Shown: piece after piece, positions 13,647 through 42,131 of the stretch
How the letters are laid out: the number at the start of each line of letters is the position of its first letter
Numbering within the stretch: position 1 is the first letter of the stretch
Source: Leptolyngbya iicbica LK
GTDB lineage: Bacteria > Cyanobacteriota > Cyanobacteriia > Phormidesmidales > Phormidesmidaceae
Reading direction: 5' to 3'
Assembly: GCF_004212215.1 (NCBI RefSeq)
Contig: NZ_QVFV01000010.1
Span: 66,584-127,922 of the forward strand
Length of the DNA: 61,339 nucleotides
Notes under the pieces: generated by a model
Told to the model about the DNA's origin: nothing
Database searches by the model: none
Seen by the model: only the letters and a program-made list of their open reading frames with translations
Program-made: the position numbers and the translations under genes

Positions 13647-14258
13647 CTATTCAGAATGATGAGCCACCGCCTGCAATCGCTGATAAAACTCCGACGCTTC
13701 TGACCGGGGTTGGAATTTTTGAATCGGGGCGGGCTGACTAAACAAATCTTGCTGCTGTGGCTCCCTCTCAGCTGCGGGCGCTTCAGTTAGCTTAGTTGCA
13801 TCATCTGTCGTGGTATTCGGCTCTGAAGGAGTCGTCGTCGCTCCCTCGACAGTGGCTGCTGCCGGCTCTTCATCGGGGCTGCCGACCACGGACTGAGAAC
13901 TTTCCGACTGGGGAGATAGCAGCTCCGATGGACTGAGGGAGGTGAGCGCAGCATACTTACTCGCAATGGGATCAATGGGGCCAAAGACGATGCGCTCAAA
14001 TTCGCTATTAAAGTGACGTACCGGGTGACCGCGACGCTTCCAACCTTGCAAAATCTGCTCCACAGAAAAGGCTTTGTAGCGTCCCAAATACAGCGCCTCT
14101 AAGACCGCAGCCCGAATCCAACTGGGCTCAGCTTCCAGCCGTTCATGCCAAATGGCGACCAGCTCTCCCGCTTCAAAACCGCGCAAATCAAAACAGTACT
14201 CTTGCATCAAGAGCGTGGCCTGTTCAAAGTCGCGATCGGAGCCAGTGGACGCAATCAT
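13647..14258 (-). CDS. Cyanobacterial hypothetical protein with disordered C-terminal half
   Basis: About 203 residues from the ATG at 14258 (MIASTGSDRDFEQATLLMQE). The first 110 residues form a compact helical part (EYCFDLRGFEAGELVAIWHE, WIRAAVLEALYLGRYKAFSV EQILQGWKRRG.P..HFN.EFER) of the kind I associate with a conserved cyanobacterial family of unknown function. The second half is T/S/P/E-rich and probably disordered, ending in a short helix (SEFYQRLQAVAHH). The frame stays open to 14867, but that extension is antisense to the aldolase gene and arginine-rich, so it is not coding. It is transcribed divergently from the aldolase gene. Confidence 0.7.
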   Translation of the reverse strand: MIASTGSDRDFEQATLLMQEYCFDLRGFEAGELVAIWHERLEAEPSWIRAAVLEALYLGRYKAFSVEQILQGWKRRGHPVRHFNSEFERIVFGPIDPIASKYAALTSLSPSELLSPQSESSQSVVGSPDEEPAAATVEGATTTPSEPNTTTDDATKLTEAPAAEREPQQQDLFSQPAPIQKFQPRSEASEFYQRLQAVAHHSE

Positions 14259-14492
14259 GGCAATCGTACAGTCATAAACATGGTCAGTGAGCGAATGAAC
14301 CGTGGGCCAACAGACTGATGCGCGGTCAACGGCAGCCCCTTGGAGCCGGGTTGGCCGATTTACCTCTGTATTAGCCCAATTATGGGTGAATCTTAGCGAA
14401 ACTTGAGCGTTTCGACACTGTGGGCGCAAAAATCTGCACCAGTTCACAAAACATCGCGATAGAGTGAACAGTCGCGGCAGGGGATAGCGGTG

Positions 14493-15131
14493 ATGAAGCA
14501 AGCGCAATGGTTGACAATACTCCGGCAGCACCGGGCGATCGCCATTATCCGCGCCCCCAGTGTGTCTGTCGGGCGATCCATGGCGCAAGCGGTGGTCGCA
14601 GCAGGCTTTCGGCTGATTGAAATTACCTGGAACAGCGATCGCCCAGCCGTCCTCGTTCAGCAGCTCCGATCGACCTTGCCGACTTACTGCTACGTCGGTG
14701 TCGGCACTGTCTTGACCCCGGCGGACATGCAGACGGCGATCGCGGCGGGGGCTCAGTTTTGCTTCATGCCCCACACTGATGCTGCGCTGCTTGCGATCGC
14801 CCAAGCGGAGGAAATTCCAGCGATCCCAGGTGCCCTCACCCCCACCGAAATCATGACCGCCTGGCAACTCGGTGCCGATAGCGTCAAGGTGTTTCCTTGC
14901 CAGTCAGTCGGGGGACCAGCCTACATTCGCCACTTGCAAGGTCCGCTTGGCCACATTCCCCTGATTCCCACCGGGGGCATTACCGTCGAGAGGGGTCGAG
15001 ACTATCTGCAACAGGGCGCGATCGCGATCGGGATCGCCAGTGATCTCTTTCCATCCCCCTTGGTTGCTCGTCAAGACTGGGATGCAATTCGGCAGCGATC
15101 GCAACTGGCAATACAAAACCTGCAACTCTGA
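14493..15131 (+). CDS. eda: KDPG/KHG aldolase (2-dehydro-3-deoxy-phosphogluconate aldolase)
   Basis: 212 residues of the class I aldolase family. The catalytic glutamate lies in LIEITWNSD (residue 43) and the Schiff-base lysine in ADSVKVFPC (residue 132), positions matching the known enzyme; the phosphate-binding IPTGGI segment follows. It splits KDPG into pyruvate and glyceraldehyde-3-phosphate (Entner-Doudoroff pathway) and can act on 4-hydroxy-2-oxoglutarate. GTG at 14490 directly precedes ATG 14493; AGGGG lies upstream, and I prefer the ATG. No edd or zwf gene is adjacent. Confidence 0.92.
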   Translation: MKQAQWLTILRQHRAIAIIRAPSVSVGRSMAQAVVAAGFRLIEITWNSDRPAVLVQQLRSTLPTYCYVGVGTVLTPADMQTAIAAGAQFCFMPHTDAALLAIAQAEEIPAIPGALTPTEIMTAWQLGADSVKVFPCQSVGGPAYIRHLQGPLGHIPLIPTGGITVERGRDYLQQGAIAIGIASDLFPSPLVARQDWDAIRQRSQLAIQNLQL

Positions 15132-15236
15132 TGGATCGCTCAAGCCACTTTGACCCCGAAGCTAGTGACCCCGCCCCCATGCTCCCTAGCCCCCCAGCTT
15201 CCCTGGCCCAATGCCGCTGCCAGCCACCATCACCAC

Positions 15237-15869
15237 CTACGTCGCTTGACTCAACCAGGCGATCGCTTCCCGAATCCAGTCTTCGGCGTTGTCATTTTTC
15301 GCCAGCGTGCTGCTACGACCAATCACCTGTAGCGCTTTCACAATTTCGCCATTGGTGTAGCCCAAAGCCAGCAGCGTCATTTCGACCTCTTCTTGCACAT
15401 TGGCCATGGGACCACCACCCGGAGCAATCGTCAGCCCAGATTGCTGTCGCCATTCCGCCAGCTTGGTCTTGAGTTCTAAAATCAGGCGCTCAGCGGTTTT
15501 ATTGCCCACACCTTTGGTGCGCGAGATCAACCGCGTATTGCCCGACACCACCGCCTGAATCAGCTCTTGAAAGCCCAGGGTATCCAACAGAGCCATCGCC
15601 ATTTGGGGACCGATGCCGCTAACGCTCACCAGTTGGCGGAAGACATCCCGCTCAGACCGACTGGCAAAGCCAAAGACCACCGGCAACTCTTCCCGAATTT
15701 GCAGATGGCAAAACACCTGCAGCGACTCGCCCAAGGGCGGCAACTCGGCCAAAAAGCGACTGGTAACCTGTAGGTCGTAACCCACTTGGTGAACATCGAC
15801 CGTGATCATCACGCGGTGCCCCCCTGGCTTTTGCACATCAACCAGGGTGCCTTTTAAATAACTCAGCAT
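15237..15869 (-). CDS. ruvA: Holliday junction branch migration protein RuvA
   Basis: 210 residues with the RuvA layout: an OB-fold N-terminal domain (MLSYLKGTLVDVQ...VGYDLQVT), helix-hairpin-helix motifs (LVSVSGIGPQMAMALLD and LISRTKGVGNKTAERLILEL), a flexible linker, and the C-terminal RuvB-contacting helices (EEVEMTLLALGYTNGEI). It binds four-way junctions and loads RuvB. It is the last gene of a run with coaD and the coiled-coil gene, 26 bases after the latter. ruvB and ruvC are not nearby. Confidence 0.96.
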   Translation of the reverse strand: MLSYLKGTLVDVQKPGGHRVMITVDVHQVGYDLQVTSRFLAELPPLGESLQVFCHLQIREELPVVFGFASRSERDVFRQLVSVSGIGPQMAMALLDTLGFQELIQAVVSGNTRLISRTKGVGNKTAERLILELKTKLAEWRQQSGLTIAPGGGPMANVQEEVEMTLLALGYTNGEIVKALQVIGRSSTLAKNDNAEDWIREAIAWLSQAT

Positions 15870-27473: not shown

Positions 27474-28607
27474 TCAAGACGGGACGGGCGCGGGGTGCTG
27501 CTGTTGTTGTAGTTGCTCGTATTGGGCTTCGATGATGTGCAACAGTTGGGGCTGTTGCCAGTGCTGATAGAGGTGGGCGGCGATCGCGCAACCCCCAGCA
27601 GCGACCCCCTCTTTCACAAATCCGGCTTCGTAGCGCTGCAGCGCCTCATAGCGCGAGGTGGCAAACGATAGCTCAGTCGCAATCAACGGCACCTCGCCCA
27701 CCAGTGCTGCCACGCCGACGGTATCGCAAGTGGGGTCTTCGGCTACCCAGCGGGTGGTGCCCACCACGATGCGCTCGGGCTGCCACGACAGCCGATAGGT
27801 GTGCACAAGCGATCGCGCCAGGGCGTAAACGGCCAGCATCTGTGTGCCCCCGGCGAGCATCACCCCACCGTGACAGCTCGCGCCAATGGCCATCGCGGCC
27901 ACAACGATTTGCATGGGGTCACCCACAGCCGCGACGAGAGCGAGAGGCGATGCCGCCATGGTCGCCGCCGTGACAGCAGCCCGCCAATGGGTGAGTCCTT
28001 GGTTGGCGATCGCCTGCTTTTGGGCATGGTTGCAGGTCACGTGGCTACTGCCCATTTTGTCGCTGACGGGCAAGTCTAGCCCTAACAATACAGATAAGGC
28101 CGTCGTGGTGCCCCCCACGACACATTCCCCCAAAATGACGTAGTCCGCATCGGGTAGTTGGCCCAAATGGTGTCCCCACGCGAGTCCTTGCCGAAACAGA
28201 TGCTCAACCACGGTGAGTGGCAAAGCTTGACCACTACTCACGCAGGCTGCTGGCTGGCCCTGCAAATCAATATGGGGCACTGACGGCGCGAGGGGCAGCC
28301 CAGCGTTAAAAATCATCACGGGAATGAGCTGCGTCGCCACAATGGCTCGCGCAATCAGGACCGGCGATACGCCCTCAACCAGCGGTGGCAGAGGATACTG
28401 GGAAGGTTCTTTGAGGCCCTGCCACAAAAACTCAGCGTCAGCGATCGCAGTGAAGCGGCGATCGTCGGGGGTCGCTCCGGCGGCCGAGATACCCGGTAAC
28501 AATCCCGTCTCGGTAAAGCCCAGCACACAGGCCAGTCGGGGACGATGGCCACGATAGCGCCGGAGCCAGCGTTGTCCTTGAACGGTCTGGGTATAGACGC
28601 GATTCAT
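27474..28607 (-). CDS. cobT: Nicotinate-nucleotide:dimethylbenzimidazole phosphoribosyltransferase-type protein (CobT, cyanobacterial form)
   Basis: About 377 residues from the ATG at 28607, with AGGGTGG upstream; the frame to 28694 would overlap DUF2232. The sequence has the blocks of the cyanobacterial/archaeal CobT family: GFTETGLLPGISAAGATPDD, DYVILGECVVGGTTTALSVL, SVLLGLDLPVSDKMGSSHV, VGDPMQIVVAAMAIGASCHG and VMLAGGTQMLAVYALA. It activates the lower base for cobamide assembly; cyanobacteria often use adenine and make pseudocobalamin. It is the third gene of a CRP-family / DUF2232 / cobT operon, 11 bases after DUF2232. Confidence 0.9.
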   Translation of the reverse strand: MNRVYTQTVQGQRWLRRYRGHRPRLACVLGFTETGLLPGISAAGATPDDRRFTAIADAEFLWQGLKEPSQYPLPPLVEGVSPVLIARAIVATQLIPVMIFNAGLPLAPSVPHIDLQGQPAACVSSGQALPLTVVEHLFRQGLAWGHHLGQLPDADYVILGECVVGGTTTALSVLLGLDLPVSDKMGSSHVTCNHAQKQAIANQGLTHWRAAVTAATMAASPLALVAAVGDPMQIVVAAMAIGASCHGGVMLAGGTQMLAVYALARSLVHTYRLSWQPERIVVGTTRWVAEDPTCDTVGVAALVGEVPLIATELSFATSRYEALQRYEAGFVKEGVAAGGCAIAAHLYQHWQQPQLLHIIEAQYEQLQQQQHPAPVPS

Positions 28608-28618
28608 GGGGCACCACC

Positions 28619-29416
28619 CTAAGTTTCGAGGAGTCGCTGCACCCAGGGCGGCGGCGAAGGCATTTTTTCGCCCAAACGTTCGAGCAAGAGCCACGACGCC
28701 AAATGCACGGTGAATAGATAGACCAGAGAACTCACGATGACAATTAATAAGGCGACTAACTGTACCAGAGTCGTGTTGGATTGACTCAGGCTGCCCACTG
28801 ATAATAGACCAAAGCTCACCAGGCGAGAGAGTACCCAGTTAATCATTTGAGTGGCCTGGTTGATCAAATACACCCAGAGATCTTCGCCCAACATGAGGGA
28901 CAACAACCAGAGCCGCACAAAAAAGCCCAAGCTGTTGAGCAGGGTGCCGATGCCAATCGAGATATACCAGGAGGCGCGGCGATACCAGAGCCACCCAAGC
29001 TGCACCCCCAAGAGGCCATAGGGCATGAGGTAGAGCAAGCTGCGAGGCGGCCCCATCAGCACCGCCAGCAGCATGGTGGACACCAGCGCGCCCATCCAGG
29101 CAGCTCGGTTACCCCAGCGTAAATACACCAGCGCGATCGGCAGGGGAAAGACAATCCGCAGCAGTGGCCCCGGCGGAAAGTAGGCATTGACCAACCAAAT
29201 CAGACTAGCGGCACTGGCGAGGAATGCCGTTTCAACCATGGCCGCAGGCCCCACGGTGGGCCGCCGCAGCGGGCGATCGCTTTCCACAATTGCCCCAGGT
29301 CGATAGTCCAGGTAAGATTCGACCGCCTCAAACTCATCGGGATGCGACGGCGGCGCGGTGTCGCCCCATTGGGGATTTGTGGGATCGGGAGTTGCGTCTG
29401 AAGCCGACTCAGCCAT
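28619..29416 (-). CDS. DUF2232 multi-pass membrane protein
   Basis: 265 residues with an acidic N-terminal tail of about 55 residues, then six to seven membrane helices (VETAFLASAASLIWLVNAYF, IVFPLPIALVYLRWG.RAAW, GALVSTMLLAVLMGPPRSLL, YLMPYGLLGVQLGWLWYR). The order and PPRS/MPYGLLG segment fit DUF2232, a family distantly related to ECF-transporter S components. It lies 9 bases after the CRP-family gene and 11 bases before cobT, so the three are probably one operon. A link to cobamide or vitamin uptake is inference from position. Confidence 0.85.
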   Translation of the reverse strand: MAESASDATPDPTNPQWGDTAPPSHPDEFEAVESYLDYRPGAIVESDRPLRRPTVGPAAMVETAFLASAASLIWLVNAYFPPGPLLRIVFPLPIALVYLRWGNRAAWMGALVSTMLLAVLMGPPRSLLYLMPYGLLGVQLGWLWYRRASWYISIGIGTLLNSLGFFVRLWLLSLMLGEDLWVYLINQATQMINWVLSRLVSFGLLSVGSLSQSNTTLVQLVALLIVIVSSLVYLFTVHLASWLLLERLGEKMPSPPPWVQRLLET

Positions 29417-29425
29417 GCCAAACAG

Positions 29426-30133
29426 TTACACCAAGAGCTTTTCCAGGGCCACGATATCAGGGATACGCATGATATCGCGATCGCGTTTTAACAGGTCTTT
29501 CTTTTCTAGCTTATTCAATACCCGAGTGACGGTTTCTCGGGCCAGGCCACTGAGGCTACTGAGCTCACGATGGGGCAAGTTCGGGATTTCGGTCCCCTCA
29601 GCCGATACCACCCCCTGACCATCGGCCAAGAACAACAAAATGTCGATCACGCGCGAGGTGCTGTCTGATTCGCGCAAACGTAGCCGCCGATTGACCTGCC
29701 GCAACCGTCGCGCCATCAATTGCGAGAGTCGAATTCCTGCTTGCGGCTCCGTCTGAATCAGCTGCACAAAATCTTGGGCCGGGAGATTGCAAATGACGGT
29801 TGGCACCAGGGTCATCACATCTGTTGATCGGGGCACCTCATCCAGGGGAGCCATTTCCCCAAACAATTCCCCCTTACCCAAAATGTTGAGAGTGATTTCC
29901 TTACCGTCTAAGTTATAAGTGCGGATTTTGACCCAGCCATCCAAAATAAAGTAGACAGAACTGCCCCAATCATTTTCTAGCAACAGGACTTGATTAGCCG
30001 GATGACGACGTGTTACCGCCTGTGCCGTGGCCTGTTGCACAGCGGCTTCGGGCAAGCCAGCAAAAAATGGGGTAGTGCTGAGCGCTGAGCCCTCAGCATC
30101 ATAGTCGCGGGATCCATAGCGGCTGCTATCCAT
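29426..30133 (-). CDS. Crp/Fnr family transcriptional regulator
   Basis: 235 residues. Residues 20-140 form the cyclic-nucleotide-binding domain (PFFAGLPEAAVQQATAQAV, VYFILDGWVKIRTYNLDGKE) with the phosphate-binding cassette GELFGEMAPLDEVPRSTDV, which keeps the E and R-S/T residues expected for cNMP binding. The C-terminal winged helix has LPHRELSSLSGLARETVTRVLNKLE as the recognition region. It may respond to cAMP like SyCRP1, but it is not clearly that ortholog or NtcA. First gene of the operon with DUF2232 and cobT. Confidence 0.88.
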   Translation of the reverse strand: MDSSRYGSRDYDAEGSALSTTPFFAGLPEAAVQQATAQAVTRRHPANQVLLLENDWGSSVYFILDGWVKIRTYNLDGKEITLNILGKGELFGEMAPLDEVPRSTDVMTLVPTVICNLPAQDFVQLIQTEPQAGIRLSQLMARRLRQVNRRLRLRESDSTSRVIDILLFLADGQGVVSAEGTEIPNLPHRELSSLSGLARETVTRVLNKLEKKDLLKRDRDIMRIPDIVALEKLLV

Positions 30134-30683
30134 GAACTTTGACTATCTACGATAAAGTGACACGACTTTCATCCAAACTCCTGGCTTGGTCGAGACAATG
30201 CGGATTCGAGTTTGACCTGTCGTGCAAGATGCTTTGATGCCAAGTTGGACTCAACTGCGAGCGGCGATCGCCCTCATCAATGCACTCCATAGACCAAAAT
30301 TGATACTACTGACGCTCGGAAAAGTATTGTCCCACAGTCCTTCTAAAAGATCACTCCCACCATCAATGCGTCATCACCTCATAGGGCCATCGAGCCCGGG
30401 CGCCCCCATCACACAACTGCGATAGCCAAGACAGAATTCGGCAATTGCGAAGAATTCATTGCTGAGCCATAACAATTCCTCACAGATTTCGGCTGACTGT
30501 CCTACACTTTGGGCAAACCACCAGGGTTTTTGGAGGGAAAACTCACGTCATGAGTATGCTAGTGAGCAATTGCCGCAGATACTGGCCCCCATTTCAGGGC
30601 GCAGCGTCCGGCGAGCCTGTGACCAAGGCATACCCTCGATGAGCTTGAGGGCGATTGAGTCAGTCGGTTTTTAGGAGTTCGCG
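30134..30683. other. 550-bp region upstream of the giant gene
   Basis: It contains the divergent promoters of the CRP-family gene and the giant gene. I see no CRP-like TGTGA-N6-TCACA site, RNA or repeat. AGGAG at 30674-30678 is the ribosome binding site of the GTG start at 30684. Confidence 0.5.
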
Positions 30684-33600
30684 GTGGCTTCGCAACAAGG
30701 GCAACTACAAGCACTGATTACTGAAATTGAAGCGCTGCTGGGCCGGGCAGCGCCTAAGTTGCCGTGGATGGGATCGGGCGAAGTCAGTGAGCAGCGTCGC
30801 GTCATGGGGCAGGCGCTGAATTATCTGAAGGAATTGCAGTCGACGCCGGACGGTGCCGGTTGGGGGTTGGTGGCGAGTCAGGGGCAGGCGATCGCCCCCA
30901 CTGCAACCTCCTCGGATCCCGGCGCGGGGTATGATGCTGCCGATAGTCAGCAAGTATTGCAGGCACTCTTGCAAGAGATGCAGTATTTGCGGGCGCAGAT
31001 GGTGCAACCGCTAACCAGTGAAGTGATTGCCCTACAGCAGCAGCGCGAAACCCTCAAAAACGAAGTCCGGCAACTCGAACAGGAACGCTTACAACGAGCC
31101 GCCGCCGCGCAGCAGCCGAGCCCCGATTGGGTCAATGAAATCGTGACCCAGCTGCGATCGTCCCTCATCGCTGACTTAACCCCCAAGCTCCAGGCTTTGC
31201 CCAGCCATGGCTCAGACGATTTTCTGCTCTCCGGTATCCCGCCAGAACAAAATTTGCTGGCCGGGGCCGAGCCGCTACCACAGCTGAGCCCCCAGCAGCG
31301 CCTTGAGCAGTTGCGCCAAATTCAATCACAAACCGATGGCATGTTGCTCAAGCTTGATGCCAATTTGCGGGCCGTGTTTGAGTCCCTCGACCAAAGCATC
31401 CAAAGCTATTGCGACACACTGAACCAGGGCCTGGATGCCATGCATGGGCTAGGTCAACAGGGAGAATTTATTTTTCGCACATTTATCAACCATCTTGCTG
31501 AACAGCTGCAAGAAGAAGGCAGTGCCCTGGCCGAGCAGCTTGCCAGTCAGCAAGAACTGGCGCGGCTCCGGGGAGACATCGATGACTCGATGGATGTCAT
31601 GGAGGACTCTGAAACCGACGCCCCGAATGACTTGATGGACGCGGTCGTTGATTTGGACGACGTTGAGTTAGACGATCTCAGCGAATTTGATGGGGATGAT
31701 GACTTGGCGCTGGATGAAGAAGTCACGTTGTTTCAGCTCGATGAAGAGTTTGAAGACTGGTCAGACGAAGAGGAAGACGAGGCGTGGTCGGAGCTAGAGG
31801 GCGATCGCGATGAGGAAAAAACCATTCTCCAAACTGAGCCGATTGCTTGGGAGGCGGTAATGGGCCAGCCCACCAGTGGCACGACATCAGAAGAGATTGC
31901 CGACGATGAGCCCACCGTCGCTTATACCGAAGAAATTGACGCGCTGTATGACAACCTATTTGGGATGACAGCAGCGCCCGAGGCTGCTGCGGCAACAGGG
32001 AGTGATGACGTAGAAGCGACGGTGGATGAGCAATTGCGGCAGGCTGATACATCCGCGTTTGACGTCAGCCCCCCAGAGGCAGTCATGGAACCCGCGATCG
32101 CGGATCCATCTCCCTTGCCCGAGACGAACGACACATCATTAGATCTCGATTTCTTATTAGAGGCATCCGAGCCCAGCGACGATATTGCAATCTCGGAAAG
32201 CACCCCAGACGAACCGGAACCGCCCCTGGAAGCGTTACTCGGCCCAGAGCTAGCTGCCGAGCTATCGCCAGAGGCCAGGGCTGGCGTCACACCCAGCGAC
32301 ACCATCACTTCTCTTACGGAACTGTTGCCGGACTCAGAGCAACAGCGCCAACCGGATCCCTTTGCCACCTTTGATGAAACCGCCGATACGTTCATCCCCG
32401 CTTCCCCCGACGAAAACCTCTTGGACACGGAACGGGAAGTTGCGCGACCGCAGGTAGACCTCGACTTAGACGACGACACCTTTGGCATGTTGTCGAGCGA
32501 CTTATCGCGACTAGAAGGCAGCACACCGGATGAAAAGCTGGCCGCCCCCCGCCTTAGCGATGCTTTGGAGCTGGATGATTTTGCTCAAGATGTGGTCGAG
32601 CCAGAGCGTCCAGCCTCAGGGCTAGACGAGCTCGACGCGGCACCGCCCGCCGAGCCCACGCTCGATGAGGTCGAGGCATCATCCTTGGACTTCACCGCCT
32701 TAGAGATGGATGAGGAGACCGATGAGGATGCCGATCAGCTAGAAGCAGATGAGGAAGCATTATTCGCTGAGTTATTTGACGATGGGGCCGCATCCCCATC
32801 TTCAGAGGATATGGAAGCTGATGCTACGCCCACAGCGGCCAGTCGGCCAAGCATTGACGAGGTCGGAGAGCCGACAGCGATCGCTGAGGCGCTCACATCC
32901 CCAACAGAGGACGACTTGCCGATCGAGATCCCCCAGGAGCCGACGGATGATGCAGACCTTGAGGCCGATGCTGAGCTGGAATTGACGCAATTATTTGACG
33001 AGTCGGACATGAGCGCCGAGTCAGACGCGCTTGAATGGCGTGATGAAGACTTGCCCGCGATCGCGGACAGCCTCTCCATCGCCGAAAGTCTGAGCGACAC
33101 CCCCACGGCCCCACCCTCCGACCGTGTTAGTGATGCCGAAATCGCGGCAGCGGACGACGACGCAGCGACTGACGACAGCCCGATGACATTTGAGTTAGAC
33201 GCCACCAGCGACGCACTCGCAGAGGACGAGGGATCAGAAGCCGATGACAGCGAAGACGATATTCTGCCGCGCCTCGATTTAGACGAATTGGAGCTGTTTG
33301 ACGAACCGACCCTGGGGACGGGGAGACCCCGCGATCGCCCAGAGGCGTCCCAGCCGTCAGATGACTTCCTGGACTTATCCGACACACCAGCCACAGATGC
33401 CGATACCACCGATACGGAGGCTTCACTAGAGGATTTTTTTAGCAGTCCTAGCCCTAGCAGCGCCGCCCCATCAGCGGTGACCGAGCCGCCAGCTGACGCT
33501 GAGTCCCTGTCTCTCGACAGTTTCTTTGATGAGGCAGATGAGGAACTCAGCGATGAGGACTTCGAGGAGAGCGGTGACGACACCTCTGACCCAGCGGATT

Positions 33601-36600
33601 TTCCCGCCGCTCCAGAATCAGTCGCGGCCACCCTGTCCACATTATTTGGCGCGGCCACCGACCGTCCCCCATCGGACTCCGAGTTGGAAGATGAAACGAG
33701 CGATCGCGATACCGATCTCACCCTCGACGATGCGTTTGGTGACCCCGAAATACCCCAAGAGCAAGACTCCAGCTTCACCCTCGACGATGCCTTCGGCGAA
33801 GCCGAATCAGACGTAGACGATGAAGACACTAGTTTTACCCTCGACGACGCTTTTGGGGTCGAGGAATCGTCTGCAACTACGGCCTTTTTAGACTCGCCCA
33901 GTGATGATGAATCTGGCTTTACCCTCGACGATGCTTTCGGCGGGGCCGAAGCCGAAGCAAGCGATGACGATAACGACACTAGTTTCACCCTCGACGACGC
34001 TTTTGGGGTCGAGGAATCGTCTGCGACTACAGCCTTTTTAGACTCGCCCAGTGATGATGAATCTGGCTTCACCCTCGACGATGCTTTCGGCGAGGCAGAT
34101 GACGCTGGCGATCGCGACGCCAACTTCACCTTAGAGGATGCCTTTGGCGACGCCGAAGACCTGAACAGCACCTCTGGCTTCACTTTAGAGAATGCTTTTG
34201 GTGATGACAGTGAAGTGGCTGAAGACGCGCCAAACTTGACCCTGGATGACGTATTTGGAGAGGTTGGCGACTTGAGTGCGCCCGCTGCCGATAACGCCAC
34301 TGACTTCACGCTCGACGATGCTTTTGGTGATCCCGAAGAACCCGATACAGCGCCGGACAGTGACCGCGACTTTACGCTCGACAATGCTTTTGATGAGCCG
34401 GAGCCGTCAGCCTCGCCTGAGGCAACTGCCCCCAACACGACTTTGGAAGATTTTGCTGCGGCTGTTTCCAGTGGACCCGAAGATTCGGTGCCCCCCGTCA
34501 CGGAGTCTTCTTTGACGATGGATGACATTGGCTTTGACTTGGGGGCCGCGATCGCAGATGAAGCTAACGAGCCCGCGTTAACCCTCGATGCTGACCTGTT
34601 TGGGGAGACCGCCGAAACGACCACCGCCTCAACCGAGGAGGCGATCGCCCCTGATCAGCTGGTTGATGCGTTAGAGCTGGGGGATGTCCCCGACGAGATC
34701 GCTCCCATCGCCGATGACGTTTCTTTAGAAACCTGGGGTGACACGCTGGACGACGCCCCTAGCAGCGCTTCTCCAGAGGACGATCGCTTGGATTTTGGCA
34801 ATCTGGGCGCAGATTTGGGCGATGCACCCGAGACCGAGCTCCCTAGCACCAGTCCAGAGGCGACAGACACCACAAGTGTCGAAGATTTATTCGGTGACGC
34901 GCCTGACTTGGTGTCGCCGACCGTTGATGAAACGAGTGCTCCACCAGAAGATGACAGTTTGGATTTTGGCAATCTGGGCGCAGATTTGGGCGATGCACCC
35001 GAGGCCGAGCTCCCTACCACCAGTCCGGAAACGGTAGACACTTCATCCGTCGAAGATTTATTCGGCGACGCACCTGATTTGGTGTTGCCGACAATTGACG
35101 AACCTCGCGATCGCCAGTCCGATGCAGCCTTCGATAACGCTGACTTACTGGGAGCCGACGACTCTCCAGCAGATGCGGAATTGCCCATGATGGCAGAGGA
35201 TCTCTTTGCCGAGGGTACCGATGACCTGGCGGCCCCGCCTGAATCCACCGCGCCTAGCGAGAGTCCGACCTCTGCCACATCAGCATCAGGGGAATCGGGC
35301 TTAGGCATTACCGCCACCGCAGATGACGGCTTGCAAATCGTCTCTGACGCCCCCAGTGAAGCGCTGATGCAGTCATTAGCGACGTTGCCAGACTCGGCGG
35401 TCGCCGCTGACCTCCCCGTCGCGCCATCTGCGGACTCTATCGACGCCTCCTTACCACAGCCCGAAAGCACGGTGAGTGGCTCGATCGCCGATGGCTATCA
35501 GCTCAGCTTTGCCACCGCGCCATCTGACGCAGCGATTAATCGCGCGTTGATCGGGGCGCCAGAAATCACCGCTGTGGGGTTTGCGCCTGATGCCGACGCT
35601 CCATCAAGCAGTCAGCAACAACGCGACTATGGGCGGCGGCTGACCTCATGGCAGGGCATGGTAGCCGCGACTTCGTTGCCTTTTTCCACCGGGGTGGATT
35701 TGTCTAATCTGGCAATTCCCGACCCAGGCACCCCCGTCTCTCCCGCCTCCACCCAGCGACCCGCAACCGACCTGACCTCCCCAGCCATGCTCCCGGAGTC
35801 GGAGTTGACGCTGACCGGGTCAGCCGAGACCGGGTTTGCGATCGCCCAACCCGATCCTCCCTCCCTCGTTGAAACGCTATGGCCTGAGCTCGCCGCAGAC
35901 GAGGCCCCTGAAACCGACGCGGAGCCTGAGACAACAGCGACAACCAGCTCAGATGCTGAGTTAGCGGTGGCACCGGAATCAGCTAATGCGCCCCTCACCG
36001 ATGACGAACTGGCGACCCTGTTTCCCCCTGAGGCGAACGTAGTCGATGTGGGCAGCACCGACGAGCCAGACAACCGCGAATTGTCGGAGTCAGTGGACGC
36101 TGATGAGACCGGATCCGCCACCGCTGAGCTAGCCGAGCCCGAGTCTCCCAGTGACGATACACCGCCAGACGACACAGACTTAGCTGCCGCATCCCGCACG
36201 GACGAGCCCGCCGCGCCCGCCACCGATCGCACCTCTACAGAAACCGAAGAGGTCCCGCCGCCTGAGGCAATGAGTCCAGATGCGCAGGAACTCAGCCAGA
36301 CTCTAGAGGCGTTAGATCTCTCGATGGAAGAAATTCCGGCGGAGGAGATTGCCGCTGATGAGGCGTTTCAGTTTGCCTTTGACGATGAGGGGGCGGCGGT
36401 CGATCGCCCCGAAGTTGACGACGAGTTTTTGTCAGCGGAGGCGATCGCCGATCTGGATGCCCTCACGACCGACCAAGAAATTCTCCCCACGGCGCGGGAA
36501 ACGACCCCTGCCGAGTCTCCAGAGTCCACGCCGGAAGCGCCAGCAGCGCCGGAAACCACTGATTTCACCGCCGACACCGACAACACCGTATTTGCCTCTT

Positions 36601-38510
36601 CGGGCAGGTTGGCTACCTTGGGCGACGAACCTGAGACGCCCCTGCCAGACGACGAAGAACCCGCCGCCCCTGCTGAAGAGTGGTTTCTCGGCATTGACCT
36701 GGGCACCAGTGGCCTGTCCGCCGTGCTGATGGAGCATCACAGCGGCTCGGCCCATCCCCTCTGTTGGCTACCGATCGACGCTCCCACTGAGACCGCTGCC
36801 ACCTTCCGCATTCCCACGGTGGCGACAGTGCCCACCGCGACCCTCGCTGGCGAGGCCCCCTTTGAGCTGCTCACGGTGGGGCCAGCCACCACGTCACAAC
36901 CCGCTGCCAACCCAGACCAACGGCTGTTGCATACCTTGCGACCGCTCTTGCGCGTCGGCATACCGCACCACGACAGCAGCGGCATGGCGATTCCTGGGGT
37001 GCAATGGTCCGACACTGAGACCCTGCCCCTGCAACAGGTGCTCTCGACCGTCACGGCCCTATTACAGTTAGTCAGCCACCCCGAGAGTGCCGGACTGCAC
37101 TGCTCGGCGATCGGGCTCGAAGCCGATACCCTCACAGACGTGTTGGCCAACTTGCAAGGCGTGGTCATGGGCCTGCCGACTCATTGGTCAGACACCTATT
37201 GCTTCAACGTGCGAGAAGCCATCCTAACGACGGGCTTAGTCGAGACTGCCGATCAGGTCTTCTTTGTGGAAGAGGCGATCGCGGCCCTGCTCTCCGGGTT
37301 ACCCGACCCCAGCGAACCCGCTCCCCCCAGCAATCGGCCTGCTCAAGCGCTGTATCAGTGTCATTGGCAAGGGGGCACCGTCGTGATTGGCAGTGGTGCC
37401 GCTTGCACCGAGGTGGGCATCGTCGATTTGCCCCAACCCCTCGATACCGTCAGCCGCGAAGACTGGAAGCTCCGCAATTTGGCCTACGGTGGCGATGCCT
37501 TAGATTTAGACATCATCTGCCAGTTGCTGATCCCGTCGGAGCGTCGCCAACCGTTAACCCCCAACAGTCGGCGATCGCCCAATCGCGGTTGGGGTTGGCA
37601 AGCCGCCTTGCCCGAAGTCGCCAATGCCCACTGGGCCGATTTAGAGCTCGATGGCATCGACTTGCCCCGCCTGGCCGAGCCCGATGCGGGCCTCCGGCAG
37701 CAATTACGCCAGCACCTCGAATCTTCCCCTTTGGGACAGAGCCTGCTCGAAGCCGCCCGCTATTTGAAATTGATTTTGCAGCATCAAAATCACTACCAAC
37801 TAGAACTGGCCGATCAGTCTTGGCGCGTGCTGCGCCGCGACCTCGAAAGTCGGGTGCTCGTGCCCTATATTCAACGCATTAACCAACAGGTGAACGCGCT
37901 GCTGAGCCAAACGGGACTCGCCTCCCAGGGCATCAACCAGGTAATCTGCACCGGGGGGAATGCCTCCTTCAGCACCATTGCCAAGTGGCTCCGGCAAAAG
38001 TTCCCCAATGCCACCATCATTCAAGACACCTATCCCAGCAATCGGCCCCAAACCTGTAGCCGCGTCGCCTACGGGTTAGTCAATCTGTGCCGCTATCCGC
38101 AGGTTTTGGATATGCCCCGGCACCAATACAGCGACTACTTTTTGCTGCACGAAATGATGCGGGTCATTCCCGATGCGCCGCTGCCGCTGGATGGCATTTT
38201 GCACCTGCTCGAAGAACAGGGCATTAACGTTGCGGCCTGTCAGTCGCGCATTGTCGCCATTCTCGAAGGGCACTTGCCCCCCGGCTTGCTGCCCGATATG
38301 GCGACACGGGAATTGCTGAGCCGCGACACCCGCACCAGCCGCACCTATCAAGACCTCGCAGCGGGGAGCCTCTTTACCCAGCAAACCCGCAATATCTATA
38401 TGGTGAATGCCGCCCAGCGCGATCGCTTGCAACCCCATCTCGCCCTGCTGATGCAAGACAAGCAGCAATCATGGACCGAACCCTTGATTGCTCAATTGGT
38501 CGCCGTTTGA
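30684..38510 (+). CDS. Giant acidic repeat protein with C-terminal Hsp70/actin-like ATPase domain
   Basis: 2608 residues from GTG 30684 (AGGAG upstream). Residues 1-300 are helical, with a coiled coil near 110-145 and a conserved-looking block near 200-297 (QRLEQLRQIQSQTDGMLLKL, YCDTLNQGLDAMHGLGQQGE). Residues about 300-1995 are strongly acidic (D/E/S/T/A/P) and probably disordered. They carry 11 clear FTLDDAFG motifs at 1012-1240, two copies of a 57-residue unit near 1366-1480, and many isolated acidic LF motifs (VEDLFGDAP, TLSTLFGAA, SLDSFFDEA). From about 1998 to the end is an ATPase of the Hsp70/actin superfamily: GIDLGTSGLSAVLME (phosphate 1, residue 2003), EEAIAALLSGL (connect 1), VVIGSGAACTEVGIVD (phosphate 2) and VICTGGNASFS (adenosine). 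There is no peptide-binding domain. Cyanobacteria have shorter proteins with this N- and C-terminal pair; the swollen middle is unusual. Function unknown. Confidence 0.85.
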   Translation: MASQQGQLQALITEIEALLGRAAPKLPWMGSGEVSEQRRVMGQALNYLKELQSTPDGAGWGLVASQGQAIAPTATSSDPGAGYDAADSQQVLQALLQEMQYLRAQMVQPLTSEVIALQQQRETLKNEVRQLEQERLQRAAAAQQPSPDWVNEIVTQLRSSLIADLTPKLQALPSHGSDDFLLSGIPPEQNLLAGAEPLPQLSPQQRLEQLRQIQSQTDGMLLKLDANLRAVFESLDQSIQSYCDTLNQGLDAMHGLGQQGEFIFRTFINHLAEQLQEEGSALAEQLASQQELARLRGDIDDSMDVMEDSETDAPNDLMDAVVDLDDVELDDLSEFDGDDDLALDEEVTLFQLDEEFEDWSDEEEDEAWSELEGDRDEEKTILQTEPIAWEAVMGQPTSGTTSEEIADDEPTVAYTEEIDALYDNLFGMTAAPEAAAATGSDDVEATVDEQLRQADTSAFDVSPPEAVMEPAIADPSPLPETNDTSLDLDFLLEASEPSDDIAISESTPDEPEPPLEALLGPELAAELSPEARAGVTPSDTITSLTELLPDSEQQRQPDPFATFDETADTFIPASPDENLLDTEREVARPQVDLDLDDDTFGMLSSDLSRLEGSTPDEKLAAPRLSDALELDDFAQDVVEPERPASGLDELDAAPPAEPTLDEVEASSLDFTALEMDEETDEDADQLEADEEALFAELFDDGAASPSSEDMEADATPTAASRPSIDEVGEPTAIAEALTSPTEDDLPIEIPQEPTDDADLEADAELELTQLFDESDMSAESDALEWRDEDLPAIADSLSIAESLSDTPTAPPSDRVSDAEIAAADDDAATDDSPMTFELDATSDALAEDEGSEADDSEDDILPRLDLDELELFDEPTLGTGRPRDRPEASQPSDDFLDLSDTPATDADTTDTEASLEDFFSSPSPSSAAPSAVTEPPADAESLSLDSFFDEADEELSDEDFEESGDDTSDPADFPAAPESVAATLSTLFGAATDRPPSDSELEDETSDRDTDLTLDDAFGDPEIPQEQDSSFTLDDAFGEAESDVDDEDTSFTLDDAFGVEESSATTAFLDSPSDDESGFTLDDAFGGAEAEASDDDNDTSFTLDDAFGVEESSATTAFLDSPSDDESGFTLDDAFGEADDAGDRDANFTLEDAFGDAEDLNSTSGFTLENAFGDDSEVAEDAPNLTLDDVFGEVGDLSAPAADNATDFTLDDAFGDPEEPDTAPDSDRDFTLDNAFDEPEPSASPEATAPNTTLEDFAAAVSSGPEDSVPPVTESSLTMDDIGFDLGAAIADEANEPALTLDADLFGETAETTTASTEEAIAPDQLVDALELGDVPDEIAPIADDVSLETWGDTLDDAPSSASPEDDRLDFGNLGADLGDAPETELPSTSPEATDTTSVEDLFGDAPDLVSPTVDETSAPPEDDSLDFGNLGADLGDAPEAELPTTSPETVDTSSVEDLFGDAPDLVLPTIDEPRDRQSDAAFDNADLLGADDSPADAELPMMAEDLFAEGTDDLAAPPESTAPSESPTSATSASGESGLGITATADDGLQIVSDAPSEALMQSLATLPDSAVAADLPVAPSADSIDASLPQPESTVSGSIADGYQLSFATAPSDAAINRALIGAPEITAVGFAPDADAPSSSQQQRDYGRRLTSWQGMVAATSLPFSTGVDLSNLAIPDPGTPVSPASTQRPATDLTSPAMLPESELTLTGSAETGFAIAQPDPPSLVETLWPELAADEAPETDAEPETTATTSSDAELAVAPESANAPLTDDELATLFPPEANVVDVGSTDEPDNRELSESVDADETGSATAELAEPESPSDDTPPDDTDLAAASRTDEPAAPATDRTSTETEEVPPPEAMSPDAQELSQTLEALDLSMEEIPAEEIAADEAFQFAFDDEGAAVDRPEVDDEFLSAEAIADLDALTTDQEILPTARETTPAESPESTPEAPAAPETTDFTADTDNTVFASSGRLATLGDEPETPLPDDEEPAAPAEEWFLGIDLGTSGLSAVLMEHHSGSAHPLCWLPIDAPTETAATFRIPTVATVPTATLAGEAPFELLTVGPATTSQPAANPDQRLLHTLRPLLRVGIPHHDSSGMAIPGVQWSDTETLPLQQVLSTVTALLQLVSHPESAGLHCSAIGLEADTLTDVLANLQGVVMGLPTHWSDTYCFNVREAILTTGLVETADQVFFVEEAIAALLSGLPDPSEPAPPSNRPAQALYQCHWQGGTVVIGSGAACTEVGIVDLPQPLDTVSREDWKLRNLAYGGDALDLDIICQLLIPSERRQPLTPNSRRSPNRGWGWQAALPEVANAHWADLELDGIDLPRLAEPDAGLRQQLRQHLESSPLGQSLLEAARYLKLILQHQNHYQLELADQSWRVLRRDLESRVLVPYIQRINQQVNALLSQTGLASQGINQVICTGGNASFSTIAKWLRQKFPNATIIQDTYPSNRPQTCSRVAYGLVNLCRYPQVLDMPRHQYSDYFLLHEMMRVIPDAPLPLDGILHLLEEQGINVAACQSRIVAILEGHLPPGLLPDMATRELLSRDTRTSRTYQDLAAGSLFTQQTRNIYMVNAAQRDRLQPHLALLMQDKQQSWTEPLIAQLVAV
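33831..34092 (+). repeat. Internal direct repeat in the giant gene (150-bp period)
   Basis: 112 bases at 33831-33942 recur at 33981-34092 with only a few silent differences, encoding SFTLDDAFGVEESSATTAFL and what follows. The near-identity shows a recent in-frame duplication within the FTLDDAFG array. Confidence 0.9.
34779..35121 (+). repeat. 57-residue tandem repeat in the giant gene
   Basis: Two units starting at 34779 and 34950 (171-bp period) share LDFGNLGADLGDAPE, then SVEDLFGDAPDLV and a T(V/I)DE end. Parts are identical at DNA level, so this is another recent duplication. Confidence 0.85.
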
Positions 38511-39218: not shown

Positions 39219-41294
<2,076 letters not shown>

Positions 41295-41477
41295 GGGGCG
41301 TGGCTCCGTTGGGGCGATCGCTCTTCATTGTGCCGAAGTATTTGGCCCGTGAGCAGCGTTAGCAAAATTATCCTCGGGTTGTATCCCATCCAGACACCAA
41401 CAGCTAAATCAGGACTGCAAAACAGTTGCGATAAGATTTTAGTGGCGGCATTGCTGATTATCCTGACGTGTGGCTGT

Positions 41478-41792
41478 ATGATTGACCACCGCTTGCCCAT
41501 TCCAATTTCACGACCCAAGATTGCAAGATTCTGTCAACACAATGCCATTCGCAAGTTGTCCTTGTTTGGCTCTGTGCTGCGCGACGACTTTTCCCCGCAG
41601 AGCGATGTCGATGTCTTGGTCGAGTTCGAGCCTGGGCAAACTCCAGGTCTAGCCATTGTGCGGATGGCCCAAGAACTCTCTGACCTGTTTGACCAGCGCC
41701 CTGTAGATCTCCGCACACCCAATGAGTTGAGTCACTATTTTCGCGATCGCGTGCTAACAGAGGCTGTGCCCTTGTACGAACATGCTCGATGA
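41478..41792 (+). CDS. MNT-type nucleotidyltransferase (MntA-like antitoxin)
   Basis: 104 residues from the ATG at 41478. The nucleotidyltransferase motif is LSLFGSVLRDDFSPQSDVDV, the GS-X10-DxD pattern of minimal nucleotidyltransferases, with a third acidic position in VDLRTPNEL. Such MNT proteins neutralise HEPN toxins by adding AMP to the toxin. The frame overlaps the HEPN gene start by 11 bases. Frames reaching further upstream cross the prolyl oligopeptidase start and are not credible. Confidence 0.85.
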   Translation: MIDHRLPIPISRPKIARFCQHNAIRKLSLFGSVLRDDFSPQSDVDVLVEFEPGQTPGLAIVRMAQELSDLFDQRPVDLRTPNELSHYFRDRVLTEAVPLYEHAR

Positions 41793-42131
41793 TGTGACTC
41801 GCTTAAAACATATGCGAGACGCCGCGCAAGAAGCGATCGCTTTCCTCGATGGCCATGACTGCCAAGACCTGGAAGCAAACCGCCTCGTACTACTAGCCGT
41901 GGTCAAAGATATCGAAATTATCGGAGAAGCTGCCAATCAGCTGTCGAGTAATTGTCGTGCTCAGGCTGCTCACCTCCCGTGGCAAGAGATTATCGGTATG
42001 CGCAATCGTCTAGTCCACCCTATTTTGAGATTGATGTCGAGATTGTGTGGGCCGTCGTCACCCAAGATCTGCCATCGCTGCTGCCCGATATAGAGCGACT
42101 CATTACTGCCAAGACACTCGATACCCCCTAA
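41782..42131 (+). pseudogene. HEPN (DUF86) toxin gene with a one-base deletion at its catalytic motif
   Basis: From ATG 41782 the frame encodes a typical HEPN/DUF86 protein (DDVTRLKHMRDAAQEAIAFL, VVKDIEIIGEAANQLS, WQEIIGMRNRLVH) up to the RX4H catalytic motif RNRLVH. Directly after it the frame is lost and ends in an unrelated tail at 42093. In another frame the expected family end continues (YFEIDVEIVWAVVTQDLPSL to a stop at 42131). One missing base at CACCCTATTTT (near 42020) explains this. The toxin is therefore probably inactive or altered, unless it is a sequencing error. The intact frame would overlap the pcxA end by a few bases. Confidence 0.8.

Follow-up and report, generated by a model that had tools for sequence, protein, structure and literature searches.

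What can be built from a helical head, a long acidic chain and a C-terminal domain of the Hsp70/actin type is the question raised by a single gene of Leptolyngbya iicbica LK. The gene lies within the window, i.e. the whole analysed stretch of 61,339 nucleotides, and encodes a protein of 2608 residues, to which a Pfam scan assigned no family at its cut-off. With the limits applied, the gene also had no match among plasmid and phage records, in PADLOC or in PHROGs. Its start has a homologous counterpart (TSQQ/TSHQ.. LITEIE) in near relatives. The composition changes abruptly along the protein: residues 1–300 and 2001–2608 are ordinary, and everything between them is strongly acidic. The parts of the locus are as follows.

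30684..38510, + strand: whole gene, 2608 aa, GTG start, TGA stop, uninterrupted reading frame
30673..30677, + strand: AGGAG, Shine-Dalgarno-like, 6 nt 5' of the GTG
30684..31553, + strand: head, residues 1–290 (end approximate), from a 55-row alignment and the helices in the L150 model
31554..32537, + strand: core arm, residues 291–618, acidic, with conserved islands; 76% identity to L031
31935..31964, + strand: island M2, IDALYDNLFG, residues 418–427; pattern shared by 65 of 83 arms
32373..32537, + strand: island M4-M5, ..TFIPASPDENLL..LSSDLSRLEG.., residues 564–618; profile matches 73 of 83 arms
32538..36674, + strand: lineage-specific arm expansion by sequence comparison, residues 619–1997; 57% identity to L031, its length absent from short-armed orthologues
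33708..34405, + strand: eleven [FL]TL[DE][DN][AV]F repeats, residues 1012–1236 (the first begins at 1012, the last at 1230)
33797–34096: 150-nt tandem duplication, 92% identical, inside the repeat region of the arm
34764..35102, + strand: arm segment duplicated in tandem; the two copies, each of 168 nt, lie 171 nt apart and are 84% identical
36675..38099, + strand: Hsp70/actin-like nucleotide-binding module, residues 1998–2472, from the predicted model and structural matches
37389..37391, + strand: codon of G2236 at the phosphate-2 Asp position; S or N in most relatives
38100..38507, + strand: C-terminal extension of about 136 residues, conserved but without recognisable resemblance to an Hsp70 substrate domain
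29426..30133, − strand: CRP-type regulator (cNMP_binding and HTH_Crp_2), divergent neighbour

With 88% and 89% identity, respectively, the head and the module are closer to their counterparts in L031 than the two portions of the arm.

The N-terminal part had been described, in a sequence-only reading of this DNA, as helical and conserved-looking, and comparison with relatives bears this out. Fifty-five heads from several cyanobacterial families were aligned over about 280 positions with a mean column identity of 35% and four invariant columns, and helices appear in the predicted model of L150, a shorter orthologue. The search for relatives among known families yielded for the head only generic helical and coiled-coil matches, the best one in PDB being ZapB (E 0.00044). 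The head is a helical, coiled-coil-like domain conserved in cyanobacteria, and it may self-assemble. At one locus (L065) a second reading frame of 650 aa (13706–15655, + strand) gave a partial head-like match (E 4e-15) and perhaps encodes a paralogue of the head; it lies on the opposite strand, past the CRP-type and DUF2232 genes.

Behind the head the sequence-only reading placed about 1700 acidic and probably disordered residues. The arm indeed comprises 1707 residues (291–1997), with 28% of D+E and 2% of K+R, and its probable disorder agrees with the model predicted for L150 by AlphaFold (1200 residues, 35 sequences, without the first 52 residues; pTM 0.54), where pLDDT of the arm is mostly 22–29, the short helix of M2 stands at about 34 and the helix of M5 reaches 62. 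Intramolecular docking of these islands on the module was considered as well, and the same model gave no sign of it. The opinion that so long a linker is unusual for one protein had to be abandoned once linkers were compared. The arm of the window is the longest of the 83 measured, and among single-ORF members the lengths start from 360 residues (L150), while intact arms within the same genus have 1403, 1447 and 1691 residues. Relatives also carry long arms, a finding that the sequence-only reading had itself named as one that would weaken its claim, and the lengths vary freely; the long acidic arm thus belongs to the family as a whole and is not constant in length.

Two islands stand out in this chain. 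M2 (LYxSLFG-type) was found in 65 of 83 arms, while shuffled arms gave on average 0.0 of 83 in 20 rounds. In M4-M5, an island of about 50 residues, IPASPxENLL is followed by LxxDLxxLE. Its profile matched 73 of the 83 arms and none of the 83 when they were reversed; it was re-trained on its own matches, and the first pass, with patterns from 27 arms, had reached the same count. M2 precedes M4 in all 25 arms that contain both strict patterns. Both islands are absent from six arms (L045, L046, L051, L052, L106 and L120), and they are therefore not indispensable. The arms of L045, L046, L051 and L106 share T-V-x-S-L-x-E-I-L-P and I-R-x-D-G-T-I-D-L-D, perhaps replacement islands.

As to the short acidic-LF motifs, of which the linker was said to be full, the strict form [DE]LF occurs in the window arm only 6 times, but the relaxed form [DEN][LIVMA]F was registered 19 times against 6.1 ± 2.2 in shuffles. 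This excess comes in good part from the eleven [FL]TL[DE][DN][AV]F repeats located in duplicated DNA. Over all 83 arms DLFG was counted 82 times versus 1.3 expected and [DEN][LIVMA]F 439 times versus 189, in arms that are related and hence non-independent. Judging by sequence, the roughly 1380 residues from 619 to 1997 are a lineage-specific expansion with LDDAFG-type (Phe-Gly) repeats; such copies inside duplicated DNA can spread without selection, which weighs against a functional reading of them. The suggested multivalent docking finds some support in the conserved islands and in the enrichment of Phe-containing motifs, and condensate formation, as proposed initially, is possible.

The C-terminal part was expected to have an Hsp70/actin-like fold, and the predicted structure of residues 1999–2608 (610 residues, pLDDT 88.4, pTM 0.91) agrees with that. 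Foldseek ranked DnaK nucleotide-binding domains first (E 2.8e-14), and VIA-align gave Z 22.4 for DnaK (rmsd 4.0, 370 residues) and Z 20.5 for MreB (rmsd 3.2, 297 residues); the fold is common to the whole superfamily. Sequence profiles ranked the candidates in the order DnaK (E 0.00081), PilM (0.035), MreB (0.27). The HSP70 family of Pfam scored the window module alone at 10.7 bits, below its gathering score of 20.6; PilM_2 gave 16.3 bits with the whole protein and 18.7 with the module alone at a cut-off of 27. In the window protein both sub-threshold matches fall in the region of the adenosine motif, and weak matches to each of the two profiles were obtained for 27 of 34 members.

The nucleotide site was compared in 97 modules, all of them distinct and covered almost completely by the profile. 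The phosphate-1 Asp and the adenosine Gly are present in all 97 and the connect-motif Glu in 90. At the position of the phosphate-2 Asp (D194 in DnaK) there are S in 51, N in 35, D in 5, G in 2 (including the window), H in 2, E in 1 and V in 1, so that 92 of the 97 modules carry another residue there. The ATPase motifs reported as visible are therefore there as far as phosphate-1, connect and adenosine are concerned, while the phosphate-2 site is present but devoid of its Asp (G2236). Hsc70 mutants that lose this Asp are reported to have weakened hydrolysis. In DnaK, residues D8, E171 and D194 hold waters around Mg, according to PMC12406271. The conservation pattern suggests a module that would bind ATP and hydrolyse it poorly. 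The same loss makes an ATPase-driven system less likely. We presume a likeness of the phosphate-2 site to the D-x-G-x-x-x-T of MreB/actin and rely only on the position of the Asp; our own labels “T199-like”, “D201-like” and “K70-like” were set aside, as the site reads better against MreB/actin.

The position behind the nucleotide domain, where Hsp70 proteins have the substrate-binding domain, is taken by a mainly helical extension of a different kind, and the absence of a recognisable substrate domain noted before is confirmed. In the alignment of 48 sequences 5 columns of this extension of about 136 residues are invariant and 20 nearly so, and it had no significant relative among PDB sequences and Pfam families. 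In the model, the window segment 38100–38507 has the order helix-helix-helix-hairpin-helix, which looks winged-helix-like by eye and was supported by no search.

Two rival explanations must be weighed against these data. The protein might be a diverged Hsp70 chaperone, with an ATP-hydrolysing module and with the acidic arm and the C-terminal extension holding clients in place of the substrate domain, as may be thought from the nearest folds, which are DnaK and other Hsp70-type nucleotide-binding domains, from the weak HSP70 matches in 27 of 34 members and from the retained connect-motif Glu and adenosine Gly. We consider it unlikely because of the missing phosphate-2 Asp, the unrecognisable substrate domain and the HSP70 score of the window module below the cut-off; moreover, the PF00012 search in the own genome returned two divergent places besides three complete DnaK genes, the window gene not being among them. 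A divergent Hsp70-like ORF of 576 aa was also seen in this genome (G000:C1:215900–216751) shortly 5' of a full DnaK gene.

The phosphate-2 motif of MreB is D-I-G-G-G-T-T-E, and the site of the module resembles it with the Asp changed. Together with the MreB score, which is within about 2 Z units of the best DnaK row, this is consistent with an actin-like filament protein of the MreB/FtsA kind, whose module would polymerise with ATP so that the arm and the head would hang off as a bottle-brush. However, an extra C-terminal domain on the module and the profile ranking, in which Hsp70 and PilM come ahead of MreB, make such an architecture rather unlikely.

We prefer to regard the protein as a cyanobacterial scaffold, to which we assign a probability of roughly 0.4. 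Its head would assemble, the multivalent arm, by means of islands and repeats, would catch one or few partner proteins at many points, and the module, as a nucleotide-binding gate, would bind ATP and hydrolyse it poorly, acting as a switch rather than as a chaperone motor. In architecture such a scaffold is similar to polar scaffolds of the PopZ type, which are acidic, disordered and multivalent: a helical part is combined with an acidic disordered arm in both cases, but PopZ is not known to have an ATP-binding module. With DnaK/Hsp70 (PF00012) the protein shares the nucleotide-binding fold and the phosphate-1 and adenosine motifs; it differs in the replaced Asp, in having no recognisable substrate-binding domain and in the C-terminal location of the module behind an acidic arm. 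MreB and the PilM/FtsA-type actin-like proteins have in common with it the superfamily fold and, as a weak match, PilM_2 (18.7 bits, below 27), whereas the additional C-terminal domain and the arm are distinct features of the protein studied here.

Genomic neighbourhood offers another point of view. A CRP-type gene stands divergently beside the head gene at 37 of 48 loci, with nothing called between them in 33, and this pairing hints at control by that regulator. For the place at the membrane or carboxysome considered in the sequence-only reading no support emerged, the conserved neighbour being this CRP-type gene. DUF2232 genes were found in 35 and CobT-like genes in 33 of the 48 loci; in the window a DUF2232 membrane protein and a CobT-like gene (28619–29416 and 27474–28694) come after the CRP-type regulator. 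Two adjoining ORFs at 41148–42093 of the window resemble, by eye, a nucleotidyltransferase/HEPN (MNT-DUF86) pair. In view of the head-to-head CRP-type gene and the weak PilM match, the protein could be a partner of the type IV pilus or of cAMP signalling, the more so as SyCRP1 is required for pilus biogenesis according to PMC2633013, the neighbour here being classed just as CRP-type. But in 38 shared intergenic regions no CRP consensus exceeded shuffles (mean fraction equally good 0.74), and the PilM_2 match, although sub-threshold ones are present in 27 of 34 members, is confined in the window to the stretch around the adenosine motif, so that we find this connection improbable.

The module is present in 49 of 59 related genomes. 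In a sample of the phylum matches with E ≤ 0.001 were obtained for 124 of 386 genomes, of which 81 are strong (E about 1e-30 or better, manual count); the remaining 43 are weaker, and many of them, spanning about 100 residues of 520–575 aa ORFs, may be other Hsp70-like proteins. When GTDB species genomes were scanned with the profile, the best 80 of 395 places were all cyanobacterial by title and included Halomicronema, Leptolyngbya, Nodosilinea, Phormidesmis and Nostocales. Where the upstream side of the locus is intact, head, arm and module mostly share one frame (70 of 82 tree rows). The literature searches gave no paper recognisable as being about this protein family, but a locus tag could conceal one. 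It occurs in many cyanobacterial families, apparently without a member that has been studied.

Not everywhere, though, is the protein encoded as a whole: in several families the head-arm and the module are separate overlapping frames. In 9 of 11 split members of the first set the M4-M5 island is on the head-arm side (L064 and L067 were without a match); fused in some members and split in others, the two parts are thereby linked to each other. Within the overlap of 17 out of 19 overlapping pairs there is a run of A9–A11 (10 of 11 in the first set and 7 of 8 in loci fetched later to test this idea), the pairs having no such run being L067 and L163. The 19 overlaps amount to 974 nt in total, and the remaining 250,746 nt of the same loci on that strand contain zero runs of at least 9 A. 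Relative to the head frame the module is in frame −1 in 14 and in frame +1 in 3 of the 17 run-bearing pairs, and in L054, L154, L155 and L157 no ATG, GTG or TTG codon precedes the module in its frame. In seven non-overlapping pairs, on the contrary, the module ORF has its own start codon and the gap is free from A-runs.

The proportion of 17/19 does not include L033, L112 and L128, which are interrupted without an A-run (with N at the break of L128) and would turn it into 17/22; situated inside single-ORF clades, they look like assembly or draft breaks. Out of the 20 later loci we excluded L159, L166 and L167 (no head ORF), L169 and L170 (single ORF) and pairs without overlap (L152, L158, L160, L161, L162, L164 and L168), and out of the first ones those that lack a head ORF nearby (L055, L057, L058, L119 and L134, for example) and L070 with its fragmented module.

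Runs were found in unbroken genes as well. An in-frame A9 or A10 is located within the arm of 15 of 69 distinct single-ORF members, the other 54 having none, and in single ORFs of Nostocales it is typically GAA AAA AAA AAG about 35 codons upstream of the module. The background outside the gene in the same loci is 3 runs in 489,432 nt of both strands. In 20 more junctions of family f28 (Nostocales by resemblance) the run was registered in 10, or in 8 of 17 if previously unseen ones are considered. The tree requires 7 switches between the single-frame and the two-frame state, and at least 5 of these fall on well supported branches; it includes the doubtful L033, L112 and L128, which are the source of three of the seven.

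Two mechanisms could read across such runs. Stimulators of ribosomal frameshifting common to the 27 run sites were not found: a Shine-Dalgarno-like stretch is upstream of 6, and downstream folding is the same as in simple shuffles (mean z 0.04). Polymerase slippage is therefore favoured over stimulated ribosomal frameshifting. For relatives with A9–A11 the sequence data suggest that slippage may yield the protein both with and without the module. In the window gene the longest A-run is 6 and the longest T-run 7, with no run of at least 9 at a frame junction; slippage is thus inapplicable here, and the fusion of head-arm and module is fixed in this organism.

Runs of this length are known from other bacteria. 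In tssM slippage on A11 lengthens the product of one gene (tssM1) and shortens that of another (tssM3), as described in PMC4256274, and the same is predicted here for out-of-frame and in-frame runs, respectively. An A9 slippage site operates in Thermus dnaX, and A8–A10 runs in IS elements of Nostoc PCC 7120 were read as productive (both from PMC1088944). Common to tssM, dnaX and our genes are A9 to A11 on the coding strand and two length forms; the difference is that here slippage is only predicted, in relatives of the window gene, and that the part gained or lost would be an Hsp70-like module. In the searched portions of two recoding surveys (PMC3711429 and PMC5009743) no Hsp70 or DnaK was encountered.

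PMC1088944 also reports that homopolymer runs are liable to slippage in replication, which makes a phase switch at the DNA level, between fused and split states, a live rival. Such a switch or, alternatively, sequencing errors or decaying genes behind the overlapping frames would mean that the A-run does not serve two simultaneous products. Genus g44 contains both states, L170 being in frame and L153, L154 and L157 out of frame, and the run-less interruptions of L033, L112 and L128 resemble breaks of assemblies or drafts. Yet what sets L170 apart from L153 is an additional C ahead of the run and not the run length, and L153, L154 and L157 are identical in run length and stop. Moreover, A9–A11 recurs in 17 of 19 overlaps from many families, including some one-contig genomes (G058, G040 and G150), and in L054, L154, L155 and L157 no start codon precedes the module in its own frame. 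Errors or phase switching are, in our opinion, a fairly unlikely origin of the pattern.

Returning to the scaffold, we can tentatively suppose, with odds somewhat against it, that the share of its pseudo-ATPase is set by programmed transcriptional slippage, so that head-arm and head-arm-switch forms would appear in a set ratio like gamma and tau of dnaX. Lineages would differ in having A9–A11 in frame or out of frame. Many relatives would thereby make the head-arm both with and without the switch, and in the lineage of the window the site would be replaced by a hard fusion of both parts, with the arm grown instead. If the slippage reading is true, it would represent cellular, non-transposon slippage across many cyanobacterial families and would show how an assembly fixes the proportion of its nucleotide switch.
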